Below are positions 249 through 64,000 of a stretch of DNA of 64,000 bases, one piece after another. The stretch is from Notamacropus eugenii (taxonomy: Eukaryota; Chordata; Mammalia; Diprotodontia; Macropodidae): positions 98,719,357 to 98,783,356 of the forward strand of contig NC_092879.1 in assembly GCF_028372415.1 (NCBI RefSeq). The letters are read 5' to 3'. The position numbers were made by a program, and so were the translations under genes. The notes under the pieces are model-generated. The model ran no database searches. It saw nothing but the letters and a program-made list of their open reading frames with translations, and was not told where the DNA came from. Positions within the stretch are counted from its first letter, which is position 1; the number at the start of each line of letters is the position of its first letter.

Positions 249-695
<447 letters not shown>

Positions 696-1947
696 TAGGG
701 CTGAATGTTCTTGTTGAAAACGTGGTTTCTCATAAGTAGGCCCTTGTTTTGTTCAGTGATAATGTAGGGGACCAAGATGTGATAAATATTTGAGAATAGG
801 CTGTTTGGGGTATATTCTGAATAATGGAGGCTTAACAAACCCTATTCAAGCCTCCAGCAGCATCCTATGATACTGCCTGGAGATACAGAATCAAGACACG
901 GTTAGCCACAGATAACTCAAGGTCTAAAATGACCATGTGACTCTCCCTTGCAAATTAGAACCCAGGACACAGTGGAGACACTATGAACCTGTGACATTGA
1001 TGCCCTCTGTTACCCTCTTACCCCTACCTTCAGCTTCACTTAATTCCTAAATGATAGTGGGGGCAGTATGATGTGGCCAAGCACCATTCAGATTTGGAGG
1101 AGCTGAGTTTGCGTTCTGACTCTGACACTTCCTTGTTGTGTGAACACGGGCCTAGTCATTTTCTCCTCTCTGAGCCTCAGCTTTCTCATTTATAAAATGG
1201 GGGCAATTACCCTCATACTATACCTTCCTCAAGGGATGGTTGTGTAACATGAAAGCCCGTGGAAATGTGAGTTCTGATTGTATCTCTTCTCCAAGTCTCA
1301 GGAGCTCCCATGGCCTCCTGAAGCATTCGGCCTGACTTTTCCACCCCCGTTGTACTCTCCCTTTTCACGATGTATTCTGGGCACATTTCCTGACAGTTGG
1401 TGACGCTCTTTCCCCGCCCCTGCTTTGTTCTTCTGATTCCTGCCCCTTTACCCACGTGACCTTTATGCCACATGCCATCTCTTCTGTGAAGCTACCTAGA
1501 CTCTCTTTGTCCAGTGAGCCCAGGCAGCCCTGAAGACAGTTAAAGGCCTTAACAGGACCTGGACTTTGTGCCTTGTATCCCTCACATCACAGTTATCTCT
1601 GTATGTCACTTCTCTTTCTCCTGCTGGGAGCAGGGGCCATGTCTTAGCACCAGGACACAATAGGTGCCAAAGAAGTGTTGATTTCAGTCTGAATTAGTGG
1701 CTCTGCAAGCTTAGGATTTCCATGGCACAGCCCAAAGTAAGGAGGCCAGGATTTGGAGTCCAAAGAACATTGGTTCAAATCCTGGTTCTCCTTCTTTGTA
1801 CCTATGTGACCTTGGGTTAGTTGCTTGACACCTCTAACCACTGAGAAATCTCTACTCCCAAAGGAATGATGGAATGGTTGGGGAAAAGCTACTTGTGTGA
1901 GGCCACATTGATGGAAAAAGCACTCCCAACATTTGTGTTTCAAATAG

Positions 1948-2164
1948 AAAATGCTCGGAAGAAGCAGGATGGCATTGTGAGCACTTCCATCATCCATTTC
2001 ACGGATCATTCTCCTCCACTGCCTCCACATGCTCCTCCATCACTCAAACTTCGCAACATCCTGGACCTTAGCCCTTTCACAGTGACGGACCAAACACCCA
2101 TGGAGATCGTGGTGGACATATTCCGAAAACTGGGACTTCGCCAGTGTCTGGTCACACACAATGG
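1948..2164 (+). CDS. CLCN5: CLCN5 coding exon (CBS linker and second CBS domain)
   Basis: This is the penultimate CLCN5 coding exon. The acceptor is CAAATAG at 1941-1947 and the donor is GTGAGA at 2165. The phase fits the preceding exon: its last G plus AA gives the Glu of ENARKKQDG. The peptide runs through the inter-CBS linker, including a Pro-rich stretch [10 protein letters not shown], into [14 protein letters not shown] and [16 protein letters not shown] of CBS2. In human ClC-5 a PPLPPY motif in this linker is a WW-ligase (Nedd4-family) site used for endocytic ubiquitination. Here the corresponding residue after PPLPP is His instead of Tyr, so the canonical PPxY is changed. That comparison relies on my recollection of the human protein. 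Confidence 0.95.
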
Positions 2165-2526
2165 GTGAGAGCGTCTGTGTAAGGTCAGAGATTGGAGTCT
2201 GGTAGAAGGGAGTGATGTATCTGGACAAGCATGTTGAGAGATGAGAGGCATCCCAGAAGGGGACCGACATTCATTGACGAAAGAGACAGGCTTCACATAG
2301 CCCACCAAAATGGTGGGAGTGGGAGCTTGGTGTCCCTCAGTTCCCTTTAGGTCCTTACTATAGAAATGCTTCCCTGCCACTGAGGCTCACCTTCCTGTTA
2401 CCCATTCAGTGGTCCTGCCCAAGACTGTGAGAAGTGAATGCACAGAGAGAGAGAAATGGAAAGCAACATTCACTCACTCCCTAAATTATCTTCAGGAGTG
2501 CAAGCCATTGTCTTTAAGAATTAGGG

Positions 2527-19429: not shown

Positions 19430-21940
19430 TTTTCATCATGACAAAAACAGAAGGGAGGCACAAACACACATGGGAATGGACACACGCACAAATGGGAAAC
19501 ACTCAAGGACAGATTGCAGTGTGTACCCAGAAATGGAATACAGGGTACAGAGAAAAACAAGGCTTACCCCCCAAAAAGCAAGGTTATACCCCAAAACGAA
19601 AGGGAGACACGGGGATGGAAACAAAGAGAGCACACCCACCAAAACTGGAGATACTCATCTGGATGAGTATGGACATGGAACAGAAACACAGAGACAAAAG
19701 GGGAACACACACAGGGAATACACAAATCCAGGAGGGGAAACACACGCATAGATGTGAAGGGACAAACTGATAGCCTGGGACACACACTTACAAACAAAGG
19801 GGGCCACAAAAAATGGGGGGAACACACTGAGAGAACAAGAAACAGCATGATTTAGAATCACAACCAAACAGGGCATACACAAATGTAGAGGAGACAGAAA
19901 CATAGCCTGATACGTGGATATGGAAACGTGAACCAATGAGAAAAGTGACATATGGGAGATAGGGGACACATGGACAGAAGGGAACACACGGACAAGTGGG
20001 GACAAATGGACAGAAGGGATATAAAAACAGATAAGAGACACACGGACATGTGGGGACACACAGACAGACAGGGACACACGGACAGACAGATGACACAGAA
20101 AGACAGATGGGGACACATGTACAGACAGACGAAGGACACACTGACAGATGGGGACAGACAGACAGATGGGGACATATGGACAGACAGGTGGTAGATACAT
20201 GGACAGATGGAGACACACAGACAGATGTGGACACATGGAGAGACAGATAGGGACCCATGGAAAGACAGATAGGTGGGAACACACAGACAGACAGTTGAGA
20301 ACACATGGACAGAGGAGGACACACAGACAGACAGGTGGGGACACACAGACAAGTGGGGACACATGGACAGATGGGGACACATGGACAGATGGGGACAGAC
20401 AGACAGATTGATGGGGACACACAGATAAGTGGGGACACACGAACAGACAGATGGGGACACACAGACAGACAGATGGGGACACACGGACAGATGGGGACAC
20501 ACAGACAGACGGGGACACACAGACAGGCAGGGACACATGGACAGGCAGATGGGGACACACAGACAGACAGGTAGTGGATACATGGACAGATGAAGACACA
20601 TGGACAGACATATAGGGACACATGGACAGATAGATGGGGACACACAGACAGATGGGGACACAGACAGACAGATGGGGACATACAGACAGACAGATGGGGA
20701 CACACAGACAGACAGATAGGGACACACAGACAGACAGGTGGGGACACACAGACAGACAAGTGGAAACACACAGACAGATGAGGACACAGTGACAGATGGG
20801 GACACACAGACAGGTGGGGACACGGATAGACAGATGGGGACACACAGATAGACAGATGGGGACACACAGACAGACAGGTAGTGGATACATGGACAGATGG
20901 AGACACACAGACAGACAGATGGGGGACACACGGACAGATGGGAACACACAGACAGACAGATGGGGGGACACAGACAGACAGATAGGGACACACGGACAGA
21001 CAGGTGGGACACACAGACAGATGGGGATACACGGACAGATGGGAACACACAGACAGACAGATGGGGGGCACATGGACAGATGGGGACAGACAGACAGACA
21101 GATGGGGGCACATGGACAGATGGGGACAGACAGACAGATGGGGCCACATGGACAGACAGATGGGGACACATGGACAGACAGATGGGGACAGACAGACAGA
21201 CAGATAGGGACACACAGACAGACAGGTGGGGACACACAGACAGACAAGTGGGAACACATAGACAGGTGGGGACACATGGACAGACAGGTGGGGACACATG
21301 GATAGACAGATGGGGACACACATATAGACAGATGGGGACACACGGACAGACAGATGGGGGACACACGGACAGATGGGGGGCATATGGACAGATGGCGATT
21401 CACAGACAGACAGATGGGGACACATGGACAGATGGGGACACACAGACAGACAGATGGGGGACACATGGACAGATGGGGATTCACAGACAGACAGATGGGG
21501 ATACATACAGACAAATGGGGATACACAGACAGATGGGGGACACATGGACAGATGAGGACACACAGATGAGGGACACATGGATAGATGGGACAGACAGACA
21601 GATAGGTGGGGACACACATACAGATGGTGACAGACAGATGGGGACACATGGACAGACAGATGGGGTCACACAGACAGGTGGGGACCCGCAGACAGATGGG
21701 GACACAGACAGACAGGTGGGGACAGACAGACAGATGGGGACGCAAGGACAGACAGGTGGGGACACGTAGACAGGTGAGGACCCAAAGACAAATGGAGATA
21801 CACAGACAGATGGGGGCACACAGACAGATGGGGAACACATGGACAGACAGGTGGGGAATACACGGACAGATGGGGACACAGGGACAGAAGGGGATATACA
21901 GATAGGAGACCCACGGACATGTGAGGACGCACAGACAGGG
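19430..21940. repeat. GACA-type minisatellite, about 2 kb of 18-22-bp units
   Basis: From about 19950 the sequence is a tandem array of 18-, 20- and 22-base units. The plain unit is CACATGGACAGATGGGGA, and longer variants carry one extra ACAG. The flanking 19430-19950 is a more diverged version. No stop codon can arise in the consensus in most frames, so very long but meaningless reading frames appear (up to 727 codons on the minus strand, Cys/Pro/Ser/Leu/Val-rich). The 4-base differences between unit types shift frame, which rules out a conserved protein. Confidence 0.95.
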
Positions 21941-23367: not shown

Positions 23368-24069
23368 CTAATCTTCGATGAACTCCTCGGCGAGGGTCCG
23401 ATTGTGTCCATTGAGCAGAATGATGGTGAACAGCACCAGCACTTCGAACAAGATGCCAAGGAAGGGCCAGAACGCGGACAGTCGTCTGCGCACCTTGAGC
23501 ATGACCACGGCGGCATGGTAGCCCTCGCTGTTGGTGCCAACGCAGATGTATTGGCCCGAGTCCTTGGACGTGTCTACATGACGGAGAAGCAACTCGCTGC
23601 GGTGGGCGCTCTCGATGATGAAGACCCGCTGTCCGTTGCTGTTGAGCAGGAGCACGTAGTCCTCCATCGGGTAGTACCGATACCACTTCCAGGAGTCGAT
23701 GGAAGGATACGAGTAGCTCTCGCACACGAGGATCACCTCTTCGCCCTCCAGGGCGTACTCCGTCCTGGGGTTAGCGAACACTTTGGGCCTCTCCTTCTCG
23801 CGCCGCGATGTATTCTGGCCGGTCACCTTACTCGGGAAAACGCGCTGGTCATTTCCGTTCTGGTCCTCCGTAAACCCCTTGAGCTCTCCGCGCCCGGACG
23901 TGTGGGTCAGATCTCCCTGGAACTGCGCCTCTTCCTCTGTCTGGTTCAGGGTGCAGGTGGGGTGCAGCTGGGGCTCGGGCTTGGCCACGGTCACGGTTTT
24001 CCAAAGGGCAAGCAGCAGGACAGTCAGGAGAGCAGCCTTCTGCAACTTGCCCAGTAGGGCGAAACCCAT
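23368..24069 (-). CDS. Intronless basigin-like immunoglobulin membrane protein
   Basis: A single uninterrupted frame of 233 residues. Residues 10-29 are a hydrophobic signal peptide; one C2-type Ig domain runs from about 105 to 183 (Cys116, Trp127/129, DSGQYIC with Cys166). The single membrane span at about 190-209 reads WPFLGILFEVLVLFTI. This span, with the Pro and buried Glu, is the signature of basigin/embigin/neuroplastin, the chaperones of monocarboxylate transporters; the Ig wording is closest to basigin Ig2. The normal first Ig domain is decayed: Cys39 is present, but its partner position reads Arg76 (RVF where basigin has CVF) and the Trp is gone. The cytoplasmic tail is only about 13 residues, acidic (LAEEFIED), and lacks the basic KRRK stop-transfer. 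Sequons are at Asn42 and Asn86. The start has a strong context (GCAATGG). No introns are present although BSG-family genes have several, so I read it as a retrogene kept open. Its function is inferred. Confidence 0.85.
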   Translation of the reverse strand: MGFALLGKLQKAALLTVLLLALWKTVTVAKPEPQLHPTCTLNQTEEEAQFQGDLTHTSGRGELKGFTEDQNGNDQRVFPSKVTGQNTSRREKERPKVFANPRTEYALEGEEVILVCESYSYPSIDSWKWYRYYPMEDYVLLLNSNGQRVFIIESAHRSELLLRHVDTSKDSGQYICVGTNSEGYHAAVVMLKVRRRLSAFWPFLGILFEVLVLFTIILLNGHNRTLAEEFIED

Positions 24070-24244
24070 TGCCCCGGCGACCTTTCCGACAGGCTTTAGT
24101 GTGGCTTCCTCCTTCTCCTCGCTCCCACCTGTCTCCCGCGCACCTCCCTGCGGCCGCCTCCCTCAGCCGCCTCCCTCACCCTGATGATCAGGTTGTCCAG
24201 GCGTTGCTATGAGGCTGGCTCTGGAGCCCAAATGAATAGTGCGA

Positions 24245-27710: not shown

Positions 27711-28153
27711 TTACATAGCCAACCGGAAGGCCCCAAAGTAACTCGAGGTGCCATCCGTATCGTCCACAGCCAGGGAAGAGACAGATACCAGGAGCTCATC
27801 CCCTGCTTTCAGCTCAAAGAGGCCCCCCTGGTAGATGGCATGGAGGCCATACTCAGCCTCTGGAGACCAGCACTTGGTAGCCACGCCTTTCAGGAGCAGG
27901 ATGGGCTGGCGGTAAGCTGTCTGTCGGCTAATGCACTGGACCAGCTGCTGGCTTGTGGGCCGGCTCCCTTCAGCCTCAGCTGGATATCGGAAGTAGATCT
28001 GAGAATAGACATAGTACTTGCCCCCCTGGCTGACTCTCAGTGCACCTGTCTTGAAGGTGATGTTTTGCAGGTGGGAGAGCAGGCCTCGAGACTCCCAGTT
28101 GTGCAGAGGGTAGCGGCAGGACTGGGGCAGCTCCCCAAGGTGATCAAGGTTGT
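27711..28153 (-). CDS. TRAIL-like ligand, exon 5 (TNF homology domain)
   Basis: 443 bases including TAA; acceptor TTCTCCCTCTAG. It encodes residues 177-322: HNWESRGLLSHLQNITF, YYVYSQIYFRY, QTAYRQPILLLKG, CWSPEAEYGLHAIYQGGLFE, DELLVSVSSL and YFGAFRLAM. This is the whole receptor-binding beta-sandwich, and a sequon lies at Asn206. The cysteine before WSPEAEYG is the diagnostic TRAIL zinc ligand. No frame break is seen. Confidence 0.92.
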
Positions 28154-28847
28154 CTAGAGGGAGAAGAATAAGATACAGTTAAACTCAATGAGCAATTATT
28201 AAGCACCTATTAGATGAGGAACAAATTGAAAAGACCAGAGACTAGAAACAGGGAGATGAGGCAGGGAGGAAGGCCCCAAGCACAGGGTGGGAAGGGAAAT
28301 GGATCTGTAGCCTCCTGGCCAATCTCACACAGCCAGACCTCACCAAAGGAATCCCTAGTAGCCCACACCATACAGGTGGGCATCCAGCCTTCGCTTGAAG
28401 ACCCCCAGAGAGAGGAAAGCCACTCATGTTACCACATTACCAAGCTCTGCCTCAACCTCCCTCTCTGCAATTACCAACACCTCCCCCCATCTCCTCCCCC
28501 CCAGATAGAGGAAGAGGCACACTCAGAGAAGGGTAAATGTCTTACTCAAGGTCACACAGTTACGAAATTTGCTTTTTCTTCAATCTCCCCCATCAAGCTA
28601 GGGCTGGGCCAATCACTGGATACATAGTAAATACTGATTGGCTAAGACCCTCACATCACTTAGATAGAAGGGGAGGAGAGTACAGTGGTATACTCCTAAG
28701 CCAGTATGCTGTCCTTCTGTGTTCTTTCAGCAGGGGATAAGTGAAGGCCTGCTGTGGTTCTAGGGCCCATTCTTAGTTTCCTGAGGACCATGGTGGTCCT
28801 GAGTGCAAGGATGATAGGTCTCTGGGTGGATCTGGGTCTGCACTTAC

Positions 28848-28964
28848 CTGAACTGGCAGCAGTGTAGGGGATGAGGGTGACATGGGCTGAGGGCTGAGCT
28901 CCTATGGAGAAGGGGTGTGTCATTGGTGGCTGCCCCTCCACACCTGGAGAGGTACTCGTCAAAC
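28848..28964 (-). CDS. TRAIL-like ligand, exon 4 (pre-domain and strand A)
   Basis: 117 bases; acceptor TTTTTTCTGTAG, donor GTAAGTG. It starts two bases into a Gly codon and ends one base into an Asp codon. It encodes residues 138-175 ending QPSAHVTLIPYTAASS. The SAHVT segment corresponds to the AAHIT first strand of the TNF homology domain in TRAIL. Confidence 0.85.
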
Positions 28965-29835
28965 CTACAGAAAAAAGCAAATGAGAAAAAGCTGGAGGAG
29001 AAAGGGGGGAGGTTGCTTGTGATACACTCCCATCCCCCACCCCAGACCTCAAGGCCAAGGCCAAGAGGATGGCTTTCCCCTCTCTCACTCCCTTCTTCAG
29101 ATTGGGCAGGAGGAGTTATGAACAGCCAAAACACAAAGGGGGGGGGGGGGAGAAAGAGGAAGAGAAAGATGAGGAAGAGAGAGAGACAGAGACAGAGCCC
29201 TTGCACCAGAATCCAACACCCTTCCCCTTCCTTGTTTGTACTCATAATGCCTGACATGCTTGTCTAGCATTTTACATGACCTTATTTGAATCCTGCACCC
29301 ACTCTATGAGCTAGGTAACTACTTCCATGCATTATAAGCACCATTTCACAGACATTCCAACTGATGCTCAGAGAAGGTAAGTGACTTGCACAGAGGTCAC
29401 AGAGCTGTTGAGTATCTAAAGTGGAACTTGGACCTGGCTCTCCCTGACTCCAAGTCCAGTATTCTCTCCCCTGGACTCCCCAAATAGCCTCCTCACCAAC
29501 AATCTCTCCCCTCTCCAATCCTTCTTTCTTGAGCTGTCTTTGGAAGCCTTCTCTTCCCAGCATTCCTCAGTGCAGGCTCCCTGGCCAACTGTCTAGTTTT
29601 CACCCATTTGCCCTTCATTTGCCTAGGCTGTTCCCCATGCTCCCACACAGATATCTTCTCCTCATGTTAGCCACTTGGAATTCTGGGTTTCCTTTAAGAC
29701 AGCTCAAGCCCCATCTTTCACAAGAATCCCCTCCCCCTCCATTTCCTCCCCCCTACCCTCCCTAACTCCTTGTACCCATTTGGCGGATATTCTGAACATG
29801 AATGTCCTGGCAGCCTCAGGCCCCATTAATATGTA

Positions 29836-29945
29836 AGCTCCCTTATGAGGACTGTTCCATTATCTCTCCTTGTAGCCTCAGCCTCCAGCACAGTGCCTGG
29901 CACAAAGTAGGTGCTTAAAAAATGCCTACTGGTTGACTGATTCAA
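29836..29945 (+). repeat. L2/MIR tail fragment in intron 3 of the TRAIL-like gene
   Basis: It contains 'cagtgcctggcacaaagtaggtgcttaaaaaatgc'. A MIR-like fragment also lies at about 29285-29475 ('agagaaggtaagtgacttgca ... gactccaagtcca'). Confidence 0.55.
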
Positions 29946-30024
29946 ACTCACAAGCTAGTCAGTTTTTATTAAGCACCTACCAGTTCAAAATCACTGTTCT
30001 AGACATTTGAAGCAAAGAACTCAG

Positions 30025-30290
30025 AAGGTCAGAGTTGGTACCACAGTGGATAGAGCGCTGCATCCAGTTAGGGAGACAAGTTCAAATCCAGTCTCAGACA
30101 CTTTCTAGCTAGGTGACCCTGGTCAAATCACTTAACCTCTGTCTGCCTCAGTTTGCTCCAATGTAAAATGGGGATAAAAATAGCACTTACCTCTCCAGGG
30201 TTGTTGTGAGGCTCAAATGAGCAAACATATGTACAGCTGTTTGACAGACTTCCAAGTTCTATGTAAATGCGTGCTGACAATATTATTACT
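30025..30290 (+). repeat. MIR-derived SINE (Mon/Ther-like)
   Basis: 'gtaccacagtggatagagcg ... ctgcctcagtttgctcc ... tgtaaaatggggataa ... gggttgttgtgaggctcaaatgag'. Similar elements lie at 47345-47605 and 47740-48000. Confidence 0.65.
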
Positions 30291-30341
30291 ATCTCTCTAA
30301 GAGGGCAGGTTCTTAAACAAGCCCTGAGGGAATCAGCTCAC

Positions 30342-30378
30342 CTTTCTGTAAACTCCGGTGGAGAATGTTTTCAGTCAC
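30342..30378 (-). CDS. TRAIL-like ligand, exon 3 (37-base micro-exon)
   Basis: Acceptor ACTTCCAG, donor GTGAGC. It encodes VTENILHRSLQK plus one base of the next Gly codon. Only this short exon joins exons 2 and 4 in frame, and TRAIL also has a tiny third exon. It is easy for automated annotation to miss. Confidence 0.8.
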
Positions 30379-30469
30379 CTGGAAGTAAAAAAGGCAGACG
30401 TGAGAAAGGCCTGAGCTGGGAGGTCCAAAGTCAATCAACATTTATTGAGTACCTACTATGTGCCAGGTA

Positions 30470-30735
30470 CATAGGGACAGCTAGGTGGTGCCACAGTGTG
30501 CATAGAGCACGAGGCCTGGAGTTGGGAAGACTCATCTCCCTGAGTTCAAATCTGGCCTCAGACACTAGCTGGGTGACCCTGGCAAGTCACTTCACCCTGT
30601 CTGCCTCAGTCTCCTCATCTGTAAAATGAGCTGGAGAAGGAAATGGCAAACTACTTTTGTGTCTTTGCCAAGAAAACCCCAAATGGGGTCACAAAGACTC
30701 AGATGTGACTGAAAAACAACTCAATAACAACAGTG
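30470..30735 (+). repeat. Marsupial SINE, composite type
   Basis: ACAGCTAGGTGGTGCC head, GAGTTCAAATCTGGCC, then 'aaaatgagctggagaaggaaatgg ... gccaagaaaaccccaaatggggtcac'. The second half is the reverse complement of the element type seen at 15596 and 24327, so these are one SINE family in two orientations. Confidence 0.7.
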
Positions 30736-30739
30736 TTCT

Positions 30740-31135
30740 GCAACCTGGGGATACCCAGACAAAAACGAAACAGTCCCTGCCTGCTTTCTAAAGGCTTACA
30801 TTCTAACATTTAAGGGAATACTAGGTAGTTGAGGGAGGGAGGGAGGGAGGGCACAAGCAGCTGTGGGGCTCAAAATAGGCCTCCTGCAGGAAGTGGGCCT
30901 TGAGCTGAGTTCTGAAGGAAACCAGGGATTCTAAACGGTTAAAGAGGGAAGGCATTCCAGAGATGAGATGAAGTGTCCTGTGTGAGAAGAGCGGAAAGGC
31001 TACTTTGACCAGACCACAGATTGCACAGAGAGTAATACATAGAAAGCCTAGAAAGGTGGCTGAGAGCCAGGTTGTGAAGAGCTGGAAAGGCCGGACAGAG
31101 GGTCCTAAAGGTAAGAGGGAGCCAAATGCAGTTTA
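30740..31135. repeat. L2-type LINE 3' region
   Basis: 'cagtccctgcctgctttctaaaggcttacattcta ... aagtgggccttgagctgagttctgaagg ... ggcattccagag' matches the common L2/CR1-clade 3' wording. Another piece is at 41440-41950. It includes a short (GGGA)n run at 30832-30850. Confidence 0.6.
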
Positions 31136-31143
31136 CTGAGGAG

Positions 31144-31145
<2 letters not shown>

Positions 31146-31182
<37 letters not shown>
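31146..31182. repeat. (GT)n microsatellite in intron 2 of the TRAIL-like gene
   Basis: Pure GT run of 37 bases. Confidence 0.97.
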
Positions 31183-31183
<1 letters not shown>

Positions 31184-31262
31184 CAAAGACAGGCAATCAG
31201 ACAGTGGGCCAGGTCAGGAGGAAGGCCACTCCCCGAGGCCATGCTCCCCAAAGGCTGCTCAC

Positions 31263-31409
31263 CAAGGTCACATAGGATTTGATGCTACCCATGAGCTTGA
31301 GGCACGTCCGGTTGTTGATCAAGTCCTCCAGATTCGGGTTCTCTTGCAGGCTGTTGATCAGCTGGAGGCACTTCAGCTCCTCTGGAATCCCCTGGGCCTG
31401 GGTCTTTAA
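31263..31409 (-). CDS. TRAIL-like ligand, exon 2 (stalk)
   Basis: 147 bases, residues 76-124, phase 0 at both ends; acceptor CTCTCTTTAG, donor GTGAGC. It encodes LKTQAQGIPEELKCLQLINS and continues to a sequon NNRTC. Cys89 and Cys111 are 22 apart, almost as in the stalk exon of TRAIL. A long GT microsatellite begins 81 bases into the following intron. Confidence 0.85.
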
Positions 31410-31914
31410 CTAAAGAGAGACATACACACCCCAAATTTACTACCTCACTCTCTTGGCAACCAAGATTTCAGCCTAAATTCAAGCCAAGGAGTCCAACCCT
31501 GATTTGCCCTTGGCTCGCCACTGTGTGACTTTGGCCAAGTTGTTTAGGGTTAGGGTTCATTCATCTGAAAAACAGGTATATGAATACCTGCCATTGTCAA
31601 GGGAAGATGGTTTGGAGAAAGTCTGAAGGAGAAGCCTAAACACCTATTGAATGGAATTGACCCCAACAAGGCTTCAGGCTTCTCAGCAGACCTAAGCTGA
31701 GGCAGAATGGTGAAACATCCCTGTCAGCAGCATCCCCCGTCTCCACTCAGTCTGGGGTCCCTACATGGACTGTTTACTAGGACCCGGGCCTTTCCCACCA
31801 ATCAAAACTCCTCATCCCAAATCCCCCACTCTTAGGGCTGAACTCTCTATGGACCCACTCTCTGCCACTCCCTCCCCCAGGCTACTCTCACACACCCTGA
31901 CCCCCTACTGCATC

Positions 31915-32105
31915 GCACGTGGTTCTTCAAGCGTGGTCTGGGGATCCCTGGGACCATTTCAGGGGGTCCAACAAGGTCAAAACTATTTTCATAACATGAA
32001 GACATTTTAATTTTCAATACGATAAATATACTGCACATAAAAGTTCTTTGGGGAAGTCTTCGATAAATAAAGGGGTCCTGAGACAAAAAATGTTTGAGAA
32101 CCGAG
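31915..32105. repeat. Small hAT-like DNA element (tentative)
   Basis: The left end reads GTGGTTCTTCAAGCGTGG and the right end reads AATGTTTGAGAACCG, imperfect inverted repeats of a 'ggttctcaaa' type. The interior 'caaaactattttcataac ... ttctttgggg' is known mammalian MER-like wording. Confidence 0.4.
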
Positions 32106-35100
32106 GATGATGAGTAGTCTCATGGGTGGGATTCATTTGGAATATTCTAATTTGATTAACTGGGGCACGTTGCCCGGGGCCTCTCTCCCGCCCCTTCCTC
32201 TGGGAGCCTGGCTCCAGCTCCTGCCTCCCCTCCATGTGCCTATGACCCCACTTCTCTCCTTGTCCCCCTCATTTGCTTCCTTTCTCCCTCCTCATCTCTG
32301 CTGTCCTCCTTCCCTTTCGTTCCCTGGACCAGAGATACAGACTGTCCTCTCCTGGGCTGCTCTCAAGCTTTCTCAGTTCAGGCCATTGTCCCTAATAGGT
32401 GCCACCTGCGGGGAGGCCGATCTCAGTTAGCCTTGACTCTTCCCCCAGCAGTGCTATCCTGGTGCCATTAGACCCTGGAGGTAATTGGGGGGAGGCAAGG
32501 GGAGGCCTCTCTGAGGCTAAAATAGCTCTCACATGGTCCATGCTTTGGGACCAATTTCCACCCTATCAACAAAGGCATCACAGGATCAGGCCCTGACCTG
32601 AGGTAAAAACAAACAAAGAAATAAATAAACAAACGAACAAAAACCCCAAACCATGCATCAAATAAAGCAACAGCTTGGGAGTGCCCAGCACAGACAGCAC
32701 TGAGCCACGGCAGGACACCGGGCAGGCTTATCCAGGAAGCAGAGACAAGGTCTATGGAACAGCAGCAGTGGCAGCCAGATGGCGGGCAAATCCACCAAGA
32801 CCTGAAGGTTTGCAAACGGCTTCTCCACTACCTCATTGCAGGCTCACAGTCTCTCAAACAGCCTTTTAATGTTGGGATAAACTGCCCTGGACACCTCAGC
32901 ACAGGCCCTGCCTGCTCACCCAGCTGGAAGCATCCAATCCGCTGTAGAGAGTTTATGCCCAAAGAAACAGATGTGAGAAAACAGGAACCCCCTGGAGACC
33001 AATGAGGAGAACCTAAAAGGTGCAGTTTAGGATTTCAGTCAGAAGGAACTGAAGACATTTCAGCCTGAGAACACTAGAACATTCTTTACTAGCTTCTTTA
33101 TTTTGGGTTATGTTTAGAGGTAATAAGCCTTAGTGGAAAGGACAGGACCTGGATGCCAATCCTCCCTCTGACTCTGATAAGCTGCAACTGGACCCTGTTC
33201 TCCCAGCCTCAATTTCCCCTGTTGCTGTTTTTCAGTTGTGTCTGACTCTTTGGGGTCTTCTTAGCAAGTACGTGTCTGAGGTCACATTTGAACTTAGATC
33301 TTCCTGAGGCTAGCAACTCTCTAGCCACTATGCCACCCAGCTACCCTAGGTAAAAAAGAGTTCATTGGCATCTCACAGGGTCTTGTGAGGTCTCAAAGCC
33401 CAAAGTGAGCTCTCGATGGCTGGCTTATGGCCCTCCTGCAGCCTCTCTTCATTGTGCTCTCCCTTGGACACCTTCTCTTTGACATCCTTTTATTTTGATG
33501 GGTCTCTAATATTCCCCGTCCTGGACTTTCAACTACCAGCTACCTGTGCCTCAGCTCTAGCACTTAAGTGGTGGATGGATGCCTGACTGGCAGGGATGCC
33601 TCCAGCAATGGGAAGGAAGACAAAAGGGAAGTAGCTGGAATCCTAATCATGGGCCCAGAGAACATATAATGGCACAAGCTGGCATTGCTCTGGGGTGACT
33701 GGGCTGAAATGTTTTTTCTGGTTCCGAGAGGATTCATTCTCAAGGTGGCAGAGGATATATCCAGTGACGACACTGCCAGTAAAACAAGAGGCAACCATCA
33801 AACTTATCTTAAAAGACATAAAGTCCTCTGACTTGGATTGGAGTAACATATGAAAACATGTTGAAGAAATGCCATTATTAAGCTGGCAAGAGCCCTTCCC
33901 TTGCCCAGAAGCCTAGCCCAGTTCCCAGCTGCAGCCCCAGTTCAGGGCTAGGGGGAAATGAGGACGCAGGGGATCCATATCCTGAGAGCCTCAGAGGGCC
34001 ACCTCTTCTGTGCCAATTCCAGTCACTGGCTCTTCTACTCCATAACTCAGTGCTCCATAACACTGGCCAAGGTCTGGCCTTCCTCAGCTGAGACCTCCCA
34101 GAGACTGAAGAGGCAGTCAGTGGGACATAGTGGGGGAACAGAGATTTTAGAACTGAATTGGCCCTCCAGAGATCATGGGGGTCATTCTTCCAGGCAGATG
34201 TTTCCTCCTCCACAAAATGACCACTGATGACACACACAAAGAATTCTGAGACACTCTGGGTTATTACTTCCCCCATTTGACAAATGAAATAACTGCATCC
34301 CAGAGTTAGTTTCCTGTCCAGGGTCCTCTGGCTAGTACTAACTAGCTTTCCTGACATACTATATACTTTCCCCTACCCTACAAGGATGCCCTAAACCTCT
34401 GGTCAACCTTCAAAAAATGTAACTGTGGAAGACATACACACACCTAGAAAAATTTTACAGGATAATCTTGCCCAACACAATATCCATTCATTTTCCAGAT
34501 GGGGAAACTGAGCCCCAGAGAGGGGAAGGGCCCTGTAGATTGACAGAGGTGGGATCAGAACCCAGGTTTCCCGAGTCCAAATCAAAGGCACCTTCTGCCA
34601 CATCACCCCAACTGCCTCCCAAACACTGTACCCAACACCACTCCTGTGCCAACTCCTTGATAGAGCTAGGGGGCTAGAGCTCAGAGCTCTGCTAACAGTT
34701 CCTTTGCTCCCAAGGTGCTTTGGGTATATCTGGGCTGTAGTGGACAGAATCCATTGCCTGAGAACAGCCCAAGCCTGCCAGACTATCCCAAGGCAGGACA
34801 ACAGGATCAGCCTAGTCTTGTGTTCCCAAGTCCCTGATTCTGGAGCCCTTCTGCACCAAGGGACAGCACCCAGAAGTCCAAAGGGATAGGGAGGGAATGC
34901 CTCAACTCAGAAATTCAACTGAAGAACCAGAAGCCAGTCAGCTTTTTCCCTCAGGGTAGCTCAGTCTGGAAGACTGTGCTGGGCCTCCTATTGGCTAGGA
35001 TCAGGGGGTCTTGTACTTCCCTGGCCCCCTCCCTGACCCCTCCCCCACTCTGTGCCCAGTCCAGGTCTTGCAGTCAGGCAGGGTTCCCCAAATGCCAGTG

Positions 35101-35265
35101 GAATGACTAGTTATGTTCTCCTTCAGCCTGTCTTCTTCTGGAGGGCCAAAGTCTCTCACAGAGCCAGTCAGCTGTATTTGCACATGGCCTAGTAACAAGA
35201 AAGATTCCCTGAGGTCAAGAAGACGCCTTCCTTCTTGAACTAGTGAGACAGCCAAAAGACTGGAA
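32106..35265. other. Intron 1 sequence of the TRAIL-like gene, middle part
   Basis: No exon is recognised. It holds an A-rich run at 32600-32650, a SINE tail fragment at about 33225-33345 and a MIR-like fragment at about 34490-34600. Confidence 0.45.
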
Positions 35266-35352
35266 GATAGAATGGAGAGAGAGACAGAGACAGAGAGAAA
35301 GAGAGAGACAGAGAGAGACAGAGACAAAGACACAGAGACACAGATAGAGACA
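35266..35352. repeat. (GA)n-rich purine run in intron 1
   Basis: Repeats of GAGAGACAGAGA with few interruptions. It creates Ser/Leu/Cys/Val-rich minus frames that are not genes. Confidence 0.85.
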
Positions 35353-38090
35353 AACACTCTTTGGTGAGAAGGCAAAAGGCCTGGATTTGGAGTTTGGAAA
35401 GGGGCTGGGTTGCAATTCCAGGTCCCCCTTTAAGATGTTCCATCTAGTCTTGGGAGACCCACTTCCAACCTAAAATGGGACAAGTGCTATGAAATTAACA
35501 AACCATCCCTTATTGCCAAATATTTACTGATCACCTCCCCACTGAAGAGGTGGCCCAGTAGGTGATGTAGCAGAACTGTACTGGGTTTAAGGACAGAGGG
35601 CATGAGGCTGAATCCCAGCTTCCACTCTGTGTGATCTTGGATAAGTTACTTGTTTCTGGGCCTCAAGTTTCCTCATAGACTCAGTGAGCCACAAGGGGCC
35701 ATTCAACTCTTGATGCTACAACTCTCAGAATCCGGAAGGTCCATTTGGCTTCCAGTGTTTCAGGGACTGAGATGAAGGGAGAAGTGGGCTTTGACTCAAG
35801 CTGGACGGATCCGTGCACCCCTCGGTCCCCTGGGCCTAGGCTGTGCCAGTTAGTCATTGGGGAAGCTGACTTAGCAACATTTTGGAAATACCAAATTCTA
35901 TTGGCCTCTTCGCTATTCAGTCATTTCTGGAAGTACCGCCCCCTCCCCAACTGAACTCTCCCTTGTAATAGAGAAAAAGAATCAACGACTAGTTAAGGGG
36001 GACACAGTTGAAGGGCCTCAGTCAGTACCGATTTCCCTTCCTGCTAGTCCCTTCTGAGGTTCTGTCCCACCTGCCCTGTATGCATTATGTATGTACACAG
36101 CTGTAACCCTAAATGTGTGAAAGTGAGCTCATCTAGGGGAGGGACCAAACTTTTTCCTTTGTCTGAATTCCCCAGACATAGTACAGTGCTCAGAGCATAG
36201 TAGGTGCTTGCTGACTGGGTCAAATCCAAGTATCAATATCTTTTTAAAAATACAAGTAAACCAAGGTGTGAGTGAGGTGGGGTGGGGTAGGGTGGGGTGA
36301 GAAAGCCCGTCCTGACATGCCCAGGTCAAAACGGACCCACAAACCAAGTGTCAGGAACTGCAAGCTAAGATTCTGCACTGGCTGTGACCCTGGGCCTGCT
36401 CCATTCTGGAAAAGGCAAAACTTGCAGGGGCAGCTCAGGTGGGGCAGGGAGAATAGTCAGAGCCAAGCCTGGGGTAAGGAGGAGCTGTAAGTTCAGATAG
36501 AGACAATCAGACTAGGCTGCAAGCGTGTGCCTGGGGGGGCGGGATGGGACAAGGAGGGGGCTGTCTCCCCTCCCTGTCTCCCTCCTTCCCTCACTCTGTA
36601 ATTTATTTCCAAGATTTCCCAAGAAATCCATCACCATATACCACATGGGGCAAACAGCTGGGATTTGCCAGCCACCCCTTCCCCACCATGCAAAGATCCT
36701 GGAGCTGAGTCAAGCTCTGGCTCTGAGCCCTGGCTTTGTGGCTGGCTCAGACAAGCCAGATATCTGCAGACTGGTAGAAAGTTAGGGCTGAAGGGACTTT
36801 AGTCTCAGCCGTAAAAGGAGGGAGCCTTGGGGAAGTCAAGTGAGTTGGCCAGATTCCCACAGCCACAGTGGCAGAGGTGGAACAGAACCCAGGTCTCCAA
36901 ACTCCCTAGGTCTGGCCTCTGTCAAGTGTTCCAGCCTCACAAACCTGGAGTGCAGTGAGGGACCAGTGAGATAATGCAGAGTGCCAATGGTGCAGGGACA
37001 CAGGTCCTTCCTTGGTGCCTGCTCTGAGAGGGGCAGCAGTGGCAAGGAGGCAGTATTTGCATAGCCAGATCCAGCCACCGTGGGAGAGGAGAGCAAGACA
37101 AATGAAAAGAGGGGGAGCGCCTCTCTGGACCCCCAAAGGCTCAGTGGCAGTAGTGAAATTGCCAATGGAAAGTGTTCATCATGACACCAACCAGAATGGC
37201 AAACAGAGGCTCCCCTTCCATGGAAGTGTCCCATAGTCACCGGAACAGGCCCCTTTTATATGCTGTGCCACCTGGGTGCCAAACAGCAGCAAATTTAAAT
37301 AGTCCAGAGACAAATCAGGTTATAAGCTAGGACTCCCAAGGCCACCTTTCCAGTGGGAAAGGAAGTAACAAGGTAAGTCCCTTCTAACCTAGAGGAAAGC
37401 CCAGCAGTGGGAAGACCTGGATACCTGCTGGGAATAGGTCACAGATTTAAGTGAGAGGACCATGAGGGAGGATGATCCACAGTACTCTTTTTTTTGCAAA
37501 GAAAACTGTAGTGAAGACTTGTGAACCCCTGTAAGAGGAGCTGGTGGTGGTTCCTCTAGGTTAAGTGCCAGATACTAAAGCCCCCCTCCCCACCAGCTTC
37601 CACCTATGGGACAATAAGCCCATCAATAAGTAAGAAGTTCCCAAAGTGTATGCAGGCTGATAGCATCAGGAGGTGCCTCAATTGGAAAGGTTATTCTATT
37701 TATACTGATAAACAGAGGTAAGCATTTCTCTGCCCAGAAAAGAAATGGGGCAGAGAAACAGCCTCGGAGATATGAGTGCTTCATCTTCCATTTCCTCAGC
37801 TTGACCTAGCTCTTCTGAGCTATGGCAACCCTGTGAGACTGGGAGTAAGACAGGCAGCGGAGAGTGAGTGTGGGATTTGGAGTCAAAGAATTTAGGTTCT
37901 AATCGTGGCTCTGTCATGATCTATGCAATCTTGGCGAGCCCTCTAATCAAGCTGAGTCTCAGTTTCCCCGGGGGTTAAATGAGGGGGTAGGAACGGGGAT
38001 TCGAAAAAGGTCAAAGCTCACAGGTGACCCTACAGAGGTGGGGGTAAGGGTATTAAGTGTGGACTCTTTCTGGTCACAGGGGTCCAGGTT
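35353..38090. other. Intron 1 sequence of the TRAIL-like gene, promoter-proximal part
   Basis: Apart from the G-tract repeat and an L2/MIR tail at about 36165-36225, I see only what looks like unique sequence. No exon is recognised. Confidence 0.4.
36277..36300 (+). repeat. GGGGT-repeat, quadruplex-prone
   Basis: Four G-tracts of 3-4 separated by T or TA (GGTGGGGTGGGGTAGGGTGG). Confidence 0.6.
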
Positions 38091-38266
38091 TTGCCAGAAG
38101 GCACTTCGAATTGGCCAGGCCCGGGACTCGCCCCTGTCTGGCCCCCCTGGCGCCCGTTCCTGCGCTCCTGCCCAGCAAGCTCTCTGCAGCTGCCTCGCTT
38201 TTCCACAACATCACTTTTGTTTTTCCACAGTTTTCACAGCAAGCCACCTCCCTTCGTCGCGCGGGC

Positions 38267-38285
38267 TTCGCTTTCGTTTTCGTTT
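38267..38285 (-). promoter_or_regulatory. Tandem IRF/ISRE-like element
   Basis: On the minus strand AAACGAAAACGAAAGCGAA: GAAA half-sites at exact 6-base spacing, i.e. the GAAANNGAAA rule bound by IRF proteins and close to an ISRE. It lies in intron 1, about 560 bases after the exon 1 donor and inside the CpG-rich region. TRAIL is interferon-inducible in placental mammals; use of this element is inferred. Confidence 0.5.
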
Positions 38286-38841
38286 ATAGCCGACGAACCT
38301 GCCCTTTGTCCAGGCGCCCAGGTCCTCACGAGCGAGGCTAGGCGCCTTTGGTCCAGGCCAGGAACGCGCGCGGAGGTCACGGCCGCGAGGGACCTGCCCA
38401 GGGCCAGCAGGGCAAGTCCGTAAACTGCCAGCAAGCTCTCCCTTCCCAGGCAGCCCAAGGGGTGGGAGAGAAGTGGAACGTGGCCGGGCGACTAGCCTCC
38501 ACCCACTCCATCCATACGGCTGGAGTCGCCAAACTTCTCAGAAAGCAAAGGAGTCTCAAGGCCGTAGCCTTCGCAGAACTAAGGATTTATGTATGTGCAC
38601 CGACTAGGTACGAATGTACCAAGATCGAAAAGAAAACAGATCCCTCCCCTGGTACAATTCCCTGTGTAGCTTTTTCCTAACCCGCCCCTTGTTCCAGGGG
38701 AGCTCCTCCTTCAAAGACTGAGCGGATAGATCGAGGGGCAAGCACACGTGCCTCGCCTTACCTGTCTGCCGCCAGTGCCTAGGTTTTTTGGAGAAAGGTG
38801 GGGGCCACCCACAACCCAACCGAGCTCCCGCCCCGGCTCAC

Positions 38842-39066
38842 CTTGGAAATGGACATGGTGAAATAGACAAAGAGACCAGTGGTGGAGGCGACCTGCAGCG
38901 CCAGGATGGCCATAGCCGTGGTGGCAAGCCACATCGGGCTGCAAGACCCAGACCTCCCCTGCATCCTCCTCGGGACCTCGGGATCCTCAGAGGCCCCCAT
39001 CATGCACGCCGAAGAGTCGCTGCTGTCCGATCGGAAATAATGCTGGGTGGGGGGCGGCAGGCCCAT
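38842..39066 (-). CDS. TRAIL-like ligand, exon 1 (cytoplasmic tail and membrane anchor)
   Basis: It encodes residues 1-75. The ATG at 39066-39064 is the first in-frame ATG and has a good context (GGTCATGG, G at -3 and +4). The frame stays open upstream to about 39228 but has no earlier ATG. In-frame ATGs at 39003 and 39000 are alternatives. The tail is Ser/Asp-rich (SDSSDSSA), followed by the membrane span from MWLATTAMAILALQVASTTG. The exon ends in AAG at the donor GTGAGC, phase 0. Confidence 0.85.
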
Positions 39067-39300
39067 GACCAGGCCAAGGCGGCAGCTGCTGGCGAGCGAG
39101 AGGTCGAGTGGGGCAGCCTGTATGTAGGTGGAGAGCCGGGTCCGTAGGTCAGGGAGATGCCAGGGATCCGAAGGAGTAGCCAGAAGCGTCTCCGCCTCTC
39201 CAGGGTCCGCCCCCCGACACACCAGCACACAAACACAAAAACAGCCCGGCCCGCAGGCCAGACGAGGGGGAGGGGGGGGGGGGGCGTGGGAGAGCCGGGG

Positions 39301-41439
39301 AGGAGTTGCCGAGATTGTTTACTAAGTCCTAGGCGGGTCCCAGGAGTTCAACGACTCCCCGCTACTTAGAATGCGGTGGAAAGGTAAACTCTTCTACAGC
39401 TAGTCCAGCTCCCAGGGTCCTTTAGGAAAGGTCCGGTTCTTTTGGTCCTTTCCGAGGATTCTGGAAGCTGGTGGAGCCACTGGACCGAGCCCCAGGGGCC
39501 TTTGCAGCAGCTGGCATTCTGCTTGGGAAAGCCTGCAGGATTCGTTCGCTCCTTAGCCCTGTGGCACTGCCCAGTGCTTCTCTGGCCATGGCCCGTCGTT
39601 CTCTTCCCAACTTCGTCCTTCCTTTATAAACCGATCACACTCGCCTGTCGGGGAAGAGCGTCTGTGCGCTCCTTGAGCCCCAGCTGGGAAGAAGCTCCGC
39701 AGTATGTCTGAGCAGCCCTTTCCGCGGACGAGGAGCTGAGGCCAGAAGTTGGGGTTAGGGGGCTTGACTTGAAAACCTGGTTCTGCAACTTCAAGTTGTG
39801 ACCTTGCCCAGTTAGTTAGCTGTCTCCTGGACAAACTCAAGTTTGTCTGGAGAGACTCCGGGGTGATGACTTTTTCATCCCTACAGACTCTTCGAAGACC
39901 ATCTCCCAAAGCACAGCGAGCTTGGGAGGCTTGTGATGGCACCTGGAATTTCCGAAGTCTTGTTAATACTGGAAAATGCCATTCATGGCTCCCTGAGCTA
40001 CCTCAAGTGCTTGTAGTGCTCTGTCTCCTCAGATCACCTCAGATTTACTGTTCTGTGTATATCGTGTAGAATAATCCCCAAGTCGAATAATCACGGTGGC
40101 TAATATTTGCATAGCGTTTTACAATTCTGATCCTCAACCACTCTGGGAAGATAGGAGTTCTTTTCTGCATTTAGTAGATGGGGAAATTGAAGCGGGAAGA
40201 GGTTAGTGCATTCACATACTCTGGACTACATGTCCGGTGTCCTGGCCACTGTCCCTCCAGTCACCTCAATCTCAGCTCCTGGGGGACAGGGGACTGGTCT
40301 CCATCTCCAAGGTCTAGCATCCTCCCTTGCATGTTTAGTGAGAGAGGAGGAATAAGCATTTATATAGCACCTACTATATGCTGAGCTGAGCACTGTGCTA
40401 AGCACTTTTTACAAATATATCATTTGATCCTCACAACAACCCTGGGAGGTAGGGGCTGCTACTGTCCCCATGTTACAGTTGAGGAAACTGAGGCAGACAG
40501 AGGTTTGTTTTTTTTAACTTACCCAAGGTCACCTACCTAGGAAGAGTCCGAAGCTAGATTTGAATGAGGATCCTCCTGACTCCAGCCCCCCATCCTACCC
40601 CTACACACATTTGCTCTGCCACAGCTCCGATCAACTTCTATATAGTAATGAATACTTGTTGGTCTTAAGACAGAAGTCCTGGGTTTGACGCTGGCCTCTT
40701 TCACTTTTAATTTAATGACCTCAGGCAAAGTTCATCCCCTTTCTGGACCTGAGTGTCATTAGCATTAGCATTAAAAGGAAGCTGGTCTTGCCAGGCCTAG
40801 AGACCTAAGGGCTACCAGAGTCTTACCTTACCTGTCGCAGGTCTTGGGCTGGCCAAACGGATAAACGTATGAGAGAAGAGACTTTCCAGAGTCGAACAAG
40901 GGTTAGGCTTTATTCAGGGTCTTGGTTACATGTGCAGGGTAAATTCTTCCTTAGGAGAGAGGAATCCTCTTCCCAAGGAGGCAAAGATCTTACAGTAAGA
41001 GAATGGAAATGGAAGAGGGGAGAGGGGAGAGGGAAGAGAGAAGAGAGGAGAGAGGGAAGAGGGGCCTTCTGTCCTCTAAGGGCCCCTCAGCGCTAAGAGC
41101 GCCTTCAGGCTTTCCTGACCCTGCTGAAGCTCTCTGGCCGCATAGTTTGCACCTGAATACCGTGCCTGTTAGACAACAACAGGTGTGCTCAGACCCAGGC
41201 CAATCTCGAGGGCGAGGGCGGGGATGCTCTCTCCCAGCAGGAAGAGGCGGAAATGCACGAGATAGCCCAGTCTCACACCTCAATTCCCAGCTGTTCCCTG
41301 GGGGGGCCTCATGAGAACTCTAAGGTTTAGAAGTCCTCACTTTTACCTGCCCGAGACTGTCCACATGGAACTGAGCTTACACCCCCAACATGGTCTAGAT
41401 CCACTGTCATTACTGTCTGCTCTGTAACCCCAATCACAA
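39301..41439. other. Intergenic DNA upstream of the TRAIL-like gene
   Basis: No gene is recognised. MIR-like fragments lie near 40093-40200 ('tatttgcatagcgttttacaa') and 40350-40560 ('gagcactgtgctaagcac ... gaggaaactgaggcagac'). Confidence 0.5.
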
Positions 41440-41950
41440 AACATTTATTCTGAGGCAGGCTGGGTGCTAAATTCCCAGGCTACAAAAAGAAGCAAAAGAC
41501 AGTCCCTGCCCTCAAGGAGTTTACAATTTAATTGGGAAGAAGACATATAAACACATATATACAAAGAAAACCTGTACGAAGCATAAACAGGGAATAATTT
41601 GAGAAGGAAGTCACTGAAATTAAAAGGGAGTTGCAACTTGTAGGAAGTCAGGGAAGCTAAGAGGCAGAGATGAGTTGGGAAAGCCTTCCAGGCATGGGGG
41701 TAGGGAGGAGGAATTTCTCAGAGCCAGGAGATGGAGTATTTAGGGTTAATAGGGCAGCCAGGGGGCCAGAGTCAGTGGATTGAAGGGAGTTGTCTGGCAT
41801 TAAGGTTTAACAAGACTAGGAATATAGGAGGGGGCTATAACGAAGGGTCATGAAGGTTATGAAAGTCAAACAGAGCATTTTGTATTTGCTCCTGGAGGCA
41901 ATAGAGAGCCCCTAGACTTTATTGGGGGGACGCAGGTGACATGATCAGAC
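41440..41950. repeat. L2-type LINE 3' region
   Basis: 'aaagacagtccctgccctcaaggagtttacaatt ... gccttccaggcatggggg ... tttgctcctggaggcaatagagag ... acatgatcagacatg' is the L2 3' wording, longer than the copy at 30740. Confidence 0.6.
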
Positions 41951-44313: not shown

Positions 44314-44993
44314 GGGGGGCGGAGCCAAGATGGCGGAGTAGAAAGACGCAAATACACATAGCTCCGAACCCACAACCCATACAACATCGGTATAAAGTAA
44401 CTCACGGCGAACTCTGGAGCAGTGAGGCCACAGAACAGTGGAGCGAAGAAGATTTCTGTTCCAGAGGGACCTGCAAACCTCTCGCAAAAGGTCCGTTGCG
44501 CTGCAGATGCGGAGCCCAGCCCAGACCTGCTGTGGCCACGGCACCAAGAGGAACAGACCCGAGCAGGCTTCAGGGACGGGATCTCCAGCAGCCGCACAAG
44601 TCCCTCCACCCACAGGTGACGGGGTTGGTGAGAGAGTCTCTTTGGCGGGTCGAGAGGGGAGTGGGGTGCCCCCATGGCTCGGGCCCCCTCGGGAGGCAGA
44701 AGCTGAGGGGCGGCGGCAGACCAGGGCTCCCTGGGGGGGGGAGGGGTAGGAGCCTGGATCCATTGTTGAAGGTCTGTGCATAAACCCCCTGAGGGAACTG
44801 AGCCTGAGAGGGGGCCCTGCCCAGACCTGAGCACCTGATCTTAATCTCACACTGAATAGCAGCCCTGCCCCCGCCAAAAGCCCTGAGGCTGGAAGCAGCA
44901 TTTGAATCTCAGACCCCAAACACTGGCTGGGAGGATCAGGAGGCGAGGTGGGTGTGAGGAGAATATTCAGAGGTCAAGTCACTGGCTGGGAAA

Positions 44994-63115: not shown

Positions 63116-63271
63116 TCACAGGTTAGCGAGCAGCCAGTCCAGCAGTTGCTTTCTAGCCATGTTCCCGACTGCTTCATCAAGTTGTCTTTCTTTGGCAAAC
63201 TTCATGACCTCTTGGAGGAGATCTCCAACGCTGTAGCCCTTCTCAGCAGCCTTGGCTGACACTTCAGGAAG
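63116..63271 (-). CDS. AKAP4: AKAP4 terminal coding exon
   Basis: Acceptor TTTCTTTCTGCAG. It encodes [20 protein letters not shown] and ends [10 protein letters not shown] and TGA at 63118-63116. This is the highly conserved C-terminus of A-kinase anchor protein 4, the main fibrous-sheath scaffold of the sperm flagellum. The phase joins the previous exon (DGQLEK) without a break. Confidence 0.96.
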
Positions 63272-63427
63272 CTGCAGAAAGAAAGAAAGAACAGAGCTTT
63301 GTTTAGACTGGGCTGTGGACAATGACACTGGAGCTGCTGTCCAAGGGGGCGCACATGCTATTTTTCAGTGAGTGTCTGGTCTGCGGGGGTGGGCCTGCAG
63401 GGCTTGCTCAGCATTTTTTGTGCTCAC

Positions 63428-64000
63428 CTTCTCAAGCTGACCATCCTCATCTCCCATAAAATAGAGCATGGGAACGTTGAATTGCGAAGCAGCAATCCAT
63501 TGGAGCACAGCTTGGAGCTGCTTCTGAAGGTTGCTGGTGGAAGATTGGTTGTTGACAATGACCTCAGGCCCAGGGTTGTCGTGGAAGGAGTGAGACATCA
63601 TGGCGTCCTGAGCGCACCTGGAGTTGCTAGCGCGGAAGCTAGGCGAGTGATTCAGTTGCTGCTGTTGCTCCTCCAGCTCAGCGAGGCCCGCCCCGTTGTT
63701 GCTATACTTGGCCATGATGAGGCACAGCTTCATCACAGATTCCACCAGCTGGTCAACAAACTGGCGGTTTACTTGCTTCATCCCACTGATGAAATCGAAC
63801 TCCTGATGGTCCTGGAAGTGTTCCTCACCCCTTTCAGACCGTTTTGAAGTAGAAGAGGAGACTTTGGATTTTGACTCAGTCCGTTTGCTCTCACCTTCAC
63901 ATTGGTCATCCAAGCTGAATGGACTCTCACTCAGGAGTTTCTGGATAAGCATCAAAACGATGTTGGACATGTCCAGTTTCTGAGTGTCCAGCTCTTTGGG
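63428..64000 (-). CDS. AKAP4: AKAP4 large coding exon, 3' part (partial)
   Basis: The frame is open from the window edge to the donor GTGAGCA at 63427. It carries DMSNIVLMLIQKLLSESPF, FVDQLVESVMKLCLIMAKYS, PGPEVIVNNQSSTSNLQKQL and LQWIAASQFNVPMLYFMGDE. These are hallmarks of the AKAP4/AKAP3 C-terminal sheath-assembly domain, and the wording is AKAP4 instead of AKAP3. The N-terminal part with the PKA-binding helix lies beyond the window. A Glu-Gln5-type run (EEQQQQLNH) is seen in a variable segment. In placental mammals the gene is expressed in post-meiotic male germ cells. Confidence 0.96.

Follow-up and report, generated by a model that had tools for sequence, protein, structure and literature searches.

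A TRAIL-like TNF ligand gene between CLCN5 and an AKAP_110 gene in the marsupial Notamacropus eugenii, very probably the orthologue of TNFSF-Fish4/TNFSF11B

A 64,000-nucleotide stretch of the Notamacropus eugenii genome (the window; C25:98719357-98783356 of a 3.45-Gb assembly, in which C25 is a contig of 103 Mb) carries, on the minus strand at 27711..39066, an intact gene for a TRAIL-like ligand of the TNF superfamily, the five exons of which join into a coding sequence of 969 nt (322 codons and a stop). We consider this gene to be, very probably, the marsupial orthologue of the ligand gene named TNFSF-Fish4, TNFSF11B and TNFSF10L in different studies: an ancient sister of TRAIL and RANKL, located on the X between CLCN5 and AKAP4, lost in eutherians and encoding a type II trimeric ligand. 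The gene structure, the TNF domain, the flanking genes and the existence of separate TNFSF10 and TNFSF11 genes were computed in this work, and positional orthology and eutherian loss are taken from published papers.

This ligand gene has been retained in marsupials, monotremes, birds and fish and lost in placentals, and its history has already been published. According to the relevant passages of Marín 2020 (PMC7674686), TNFSF-Fish4 is found in marsupials and in the platypus (wombat LOC114053674, platypus LOC107547878) at exactly the position it has in fish, in a locus the neighbours of which, not named in these passages, have X-linked human counterparts, and has been lost in eutherians. In an extract of Marín 2025 (PMC11762692), the gene is given the new name TNFSF11B because it closely resembles TNFSF11, and an extract of Morris 2015 (PMC4662006) describes a TNFSF10L in the Tasmanian devil. 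Given its stated distribution, the devil TNFSF10L would be the same gene as TNFSF-Fish4/TNFSF11B, and we infer from family, chromosome and lineage that the gene in the window corresponds to the published one. A preliminary description of this DNA had suggested, as one of two possibilities, that an old paralogue of TNFSF10 survives in marsupials but not in placentals, and this agrees with all three sources in the parts cited; the same passages on eutherian loss contradict a placental orthologue at this site. The novelty that it implied does not hold: that the gene exists, where it lies and that it was lost have all been published (PMC7674686, in the part cited), and the interest lies only in the function of the ligand.

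The gene, its neighbours and its contig

The coordinates of the exons and of the flanking markers are collected in Table 1. The reading of five exons with consistent phases and a complete 322-residue product holds: all four introns are GT-AG, their joins give the 969-nt frame, and the running phases at the ends of exons 1 to 5 are 0, 0, 1, 1 and 0. An intact five-exon TNF ligand gene at these coordinates is real and far beyond chance. Pfam recognises a single family in the protein, TNF, at residues 194-320 (E 3.2e-31; 108.4 bits for a cut-off of 23), and this C-terminal TNF homology domain makes the product a member of the TNF ligand superfamily. The description of the ligand as TRAIL-like is likewise borne out, the best relative found by phmmer in the PDB being TRAIL (2.2e-32), followed by RANKL (2.5e-21) and then by TL1A and FasL (both 1.3e-11). 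Within exon 4, the alignment with the TRAIL chain 8slr (phmmer against the PDB) sets in at residue 162, opposite the first residues of that chain, and a hydrophobic stretch, judged by eye only, covers approximately residues 45-69.

Table 1. Exons of the TNF ligand gene and associated features, in positions of the window
Feature	Position	Strand	Details
Coding exon 1, cytoplasmic tail and putative membrane segment	38842..39066	-	225 nt; ATG start; donor GTGAGC; phase-0 end
Coding exon 2, stalk	31263..31409	-	147 nt; acceptor ...CTTTAG; donor GTGAGC; phase 0 to 0
Coding exon 3, short stalk exon	30342..30378	-	37 nt; acceptor ...TTCCAG; donor GTGAGC; phase-1 end
Coding exon 4, stalk and beginning of TNF domain	28848..28964	-	117 nt; acceptor ...CTGTAG; donor GTAAGT; phase-1 end
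Coding exon 5, bulk of TNF homology domain, stop codon	27711..28153	-	443 nt; acceptor ...CTCTAG; Pfam TNF
GC- and CpG-rich stretch (~2 kb) over exon 1	38001..40000		CpG o/e 0.50-0.81; GC 0.54-0.64
CLCN5 exons, flanking marker	249..2168; open frames 249-698 and 1845-2168	+	PDB match of joined CBS part
AKAP_110 gene pieces, flanking marker	63119-63271, 63422-63571, 63665-63988	-	three Pfam AKAP_110 matches on C25

The stretch over exon 1 stands out in a scan of positions 37001-41500 in 500-base intervals, seven of which have the CpG o/e given in the table and ten others values of 0.0-0.39; it is likely to be the promoter of the ligand gene.

The ligand gene sits between a CLC gene and an AKAP_110 gene, which had been named CLCN5 and AKAP4 in the preliminary description. 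The first name stands, as the joined CBS part of the left-flank gene matches ClC-5 better than ClC-3 in the PDB (4.9e-83 against 4.4e-66); one piece taken alone matched ClC-3 best (3.4e-45), because the solved ClC-5 chain spans only 26 of its 84 residues. On the right flank, the AKAP_110 family assignment stands, but the stronger AKAP_110 gene of this genome is on contig C4 and not on C25, and the name AKAP4 therefore rests on position; by family and position, the gene at 63119..63988 is presumably AKAP4. Together with an exon at 57.96 Mb of C25 that we take to be CD40LG-like, these two neighbours suggest from gene content that C25 is the marsupial X.

The window contains other elements. An intact, intronless frame of 264 codons lies between CLCN5 and the ligand gene, at 23368-24162 (-), and is basigin-like: residues 60-224, counted from its Met, match basigin (PDB, 1.7e-30), and it has one Ig domain and, by eye, a membrane segment of the basigin type. 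The match of a basigin-like gene on contig C14 to this frame is broken by intervening sequence into two blocks with 42% and 52% identity; as the stretch that is split in the C14 gene is continuous in the window, we read the frame as a retrogene, probably an old and conserved X-linked basigin retrogene that is still intact. A literature search for a marsupial basigin retrogene gave no report of one. Elsewhere on C25, at C25:48192755-48193291 (-), another basigin-like sequence is 31% identical, contains nine stop codons and is a probable dead copy. Positions 19957-21902 are occupied by a long degenerate minisatellite with units of about 18-22 bases, which gives rise to open frames of up to 764 codons that were rejected as artefacts of the repeat. 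An open frame of 349 codons at 44958-46007 (+) resembles LINE-1 ORF1 (Pfam Transposase_22, 1.5e-13) and is perhaps a fairly young L1 copy.

Kinship with TRAIL and RANKL

Searching the whole genome with the Pfam TNF family gave at least 12 matches, the window gene included, and searching it with the window protein gave, at E values no higher than 10, at least 14, including four exons of the window gene itself; several mammalian ligands did not come up, and both figures are therefore minimum counts. The matches include a separate TNFSF10 at C23:351681213, with a domain 72% identical to human TRAIL and a membrane exon upstream, and a separate TNFSF11 at C23:292699409, with a domain 90% identical to the RANKL chain 5bnq. 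For the remaining TNF ligand matches of this genome we assumed the names that their sequences suggest.

The TNF domain of the window gene is 47% identical to that of the TNFSF10 of the same genome, 45% to human TRAIL, 44% to mouse TRAIL (chain 8slr) and 32-33% to RANKL. The near-equal identity to the wallaby's own TNFSF10 and to human TRAIL fits a split that preceded the parting of marsupials and placentals. With 72% identity to human TRAIL for the C23 gene and 45% for the window gene, the latter is not a one-to-one orthologue of human TNFSF10. The window gene and TNFSF10 share a phase-0 end of exon 1, which in TNFSF10 falls just after a Y-F-T motif, and the phase-1 intron before the last exon is compatible with the likely acceptor of TNFSF11 and with one of two plausible acceptors in TNFSF10 (all read from the DNA of this genome). 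The window ligand differs from TRAIL in a stretch before the putative membrane segment that, by eye, is longer.

Two trees were constructed, both with 14 rows, four of them from the PDB and the other 10 from among the 12 TNF-domain matches in the genome. Left out were the distant ligands at C1:434200300 and C14:75074482, which we take to be TNFSF8- and TNFSF9-like. Both trees split the window gene, three TRAIL rows and three RANKL rows from the seven other ligands, with SH-aLRT values of 99.6 and 99 and bootstraps of 92 and 90, which are under the 95 mark. Plain IQ-TREE brought together the TRAIL of this genome, of human and of mouse without the window gene (SH-aLRT 86.4, bootstrap 85). The mixture-model tree put the window gene beside RANKL at 69/86, which is not significant, and in it the fork parting the TRAIL rows from the window gene has support below 80. 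By the AU test, neither the pairing of the window gene with its own genome's TNFSF10 (p 0.222) nor its union with all TRAIL rows (p 0.302) was rejected. A TNFSF10/TNFSF11 tree, which the preliminary description had proposed as a check, groups the gene with TRAIL and RANKL but does not fix its exact branch, and the sequence of the short TNF domain alone does not settle whether TRAIL or RANKL is the closer kin.

An alternative is that the ligand acts like RANKL rather than like TRAIL, binding RANK and OPG and bearing on signalling in bone, lymphoid or mammary tissue, which we regard as doubtful. The pairing with RANKL in the mixture-model tree, although unsupported, and the presence of an OPG-like exon in this genome would agree with such an action, as would the name TNFSF11B, chosen for similarity to TNFSF11 in the passage of Marín 2025 (PMC11762692) mentioned above. 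Identity to RANKL is nevertheless lower than identity to TRAIL (32-33% against 44-47%), and at the 40 columns that separate TRAIL from RANKL the window gene agrees with TRAIL in 22, with RANKL in 7 and with neither in 11. Furthermore, Cys230 of TRAIL, the zinc ligand, is present in the window gene and is a tyrosine in RANKL.

A marsupial duplication, the other possibility raised in the preliminary description, would mean that a copy of TNFSF10 arose within marsupials, was transferred to the X and diverged rapidly there; this is very unlikely. The highest identity of the window gene is indeed to the TNFSF10 of its own genome, the pairing of the two was not rejected, and, among the columns in which this TNFSF10 departs from the human and mouse residue, the window gene goes with it in four and with human and mouse in two, a faint hint of marsupial duplication. 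Against this, the identity to human TRAIL is only two points lower and plain IQ-TREE unites the TRAIL rows to the exclusion of the window gene; the marsupial, platypus and fish genes occupy one and the same position in the account of Marín 2020 (PMC7674686), in the passages cited.

It is just as improbable that the window gene, rather than being the retained orthologue, is a relic with an intact frame and lost expression, for its 322 codons, its four GT-AG introns and its CpG-rich 5' end are all intact. Eutherians split off more than 100 million years ago, and neutral decay over such a time would have broken the frame. A counterpart is moreover reported from the Tasmanian devil in the extract of Morris 2015 (PMC4662006). 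Lastly, the possibility that this is the sole TNFSF10 of the genome, relocated to the X, which would have undone the paralogue reading, was rejected and is next to impossible, as the check for a separate TNFSF10 found one on C23, with its membrane exon and with 72% identity to human TRAIL against 45% for the window gene.

Residues, receptors and possible mode of action

We compared 31 selected TRAIL positions. The human TRAIL residue is kept at 14 of them by the window gene and at 23 by the TNFSF10 of this genome. Those kept in the window gene include Gln205, Val207, Tyr216, Cys230, Glu236, Tyr237, Asp267 and Asp269, and the 17 changed include Arg149, Gln193, Tyr209 and Asp218, the first of which is absent from this genome's TNFSF10 and from mouse TRAIL as well. 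Gln205, Glu236 and Asp267 are common to the window gene, TRAIL and RANKL; these shared residues and the 17 changed positions suggest that the receptor choice of the window ligand may differ from that of TRAIL. An AlphaFold2 monomer model of the exon-5 domain, based on a 9-row alignment, reached a mean pLDDT of 78.6 and a pTM of 0.77, and its ten best structure matches in the PDB are all TRAIL, with RANKL next.

From the TRAIL-like residues and the TRAIL-like diagnostic columns, a zinc-centred membrane-bound trimer would be expected, and the product is most likely a membrane trimer that works much like TRAIL. The gene would encode a type II membrane protein, the C-terminal domain of which most likely assembles into a homotrimer; at its centre there is probably a zinc ion to which each chain contributes one cysteine, as in TRAIL. 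By drawing together receptors of the TNF family on an adjacent cell, such a trimer would give rise to a death signal or an NF-kB signal. In zebrafish, Tnfsf10 and Tnfsf10l3 act via Tnfrsfa on NF-kB according to an extract of a preprint (PMC12190914), which is not counted as evidence here.

For the receptors, loose Pfam searches gave at least 12 matches to TNFR_c6 and at least 28 to Death. All 12 TNFR-repeat matches fall in nine frames; no TRAIL receptor was recognised in these nine or in the 14 death-domain frames, out of 28, that were read, which with such loose searches is no proof of absence. One of the TNFR-repeat frames is OPG (PDB, E 7.2e-64) and represents an OPG exon of this genome; the other TNFR-repeat and death-domain frames carry names that we presume from their sequence. 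One TNFR repeat is located on the X contig itself, at C25:27026836-27026955 (-), and looks like EDA2R.

What this assembly of very long contigs adds is an exact model of a ligand gene that placentals have lost, with both flanks in place and both sister genes on another contig. Among the literature matches listed, none was a functional study of the ligand in marsupials, and the gene model makes it possible to ask about the role of an additional TRAIL-like ligand in a mammal, be it in the tumour immunity of the Tasmanian devil or with respect to X dosage. Tentatively, we suggest as one possibility that the marsupial X carries a second working TRAIL, zinc-centred and triggering a death or NF-kB receptor, with a dose set by incomplete X inactivation; its receptor may differ from that of TRAIL, and placentals may have lost this receptor too. 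If this were true, the extrinsic cell-death system of marsupials would have an input that placentals have lost.
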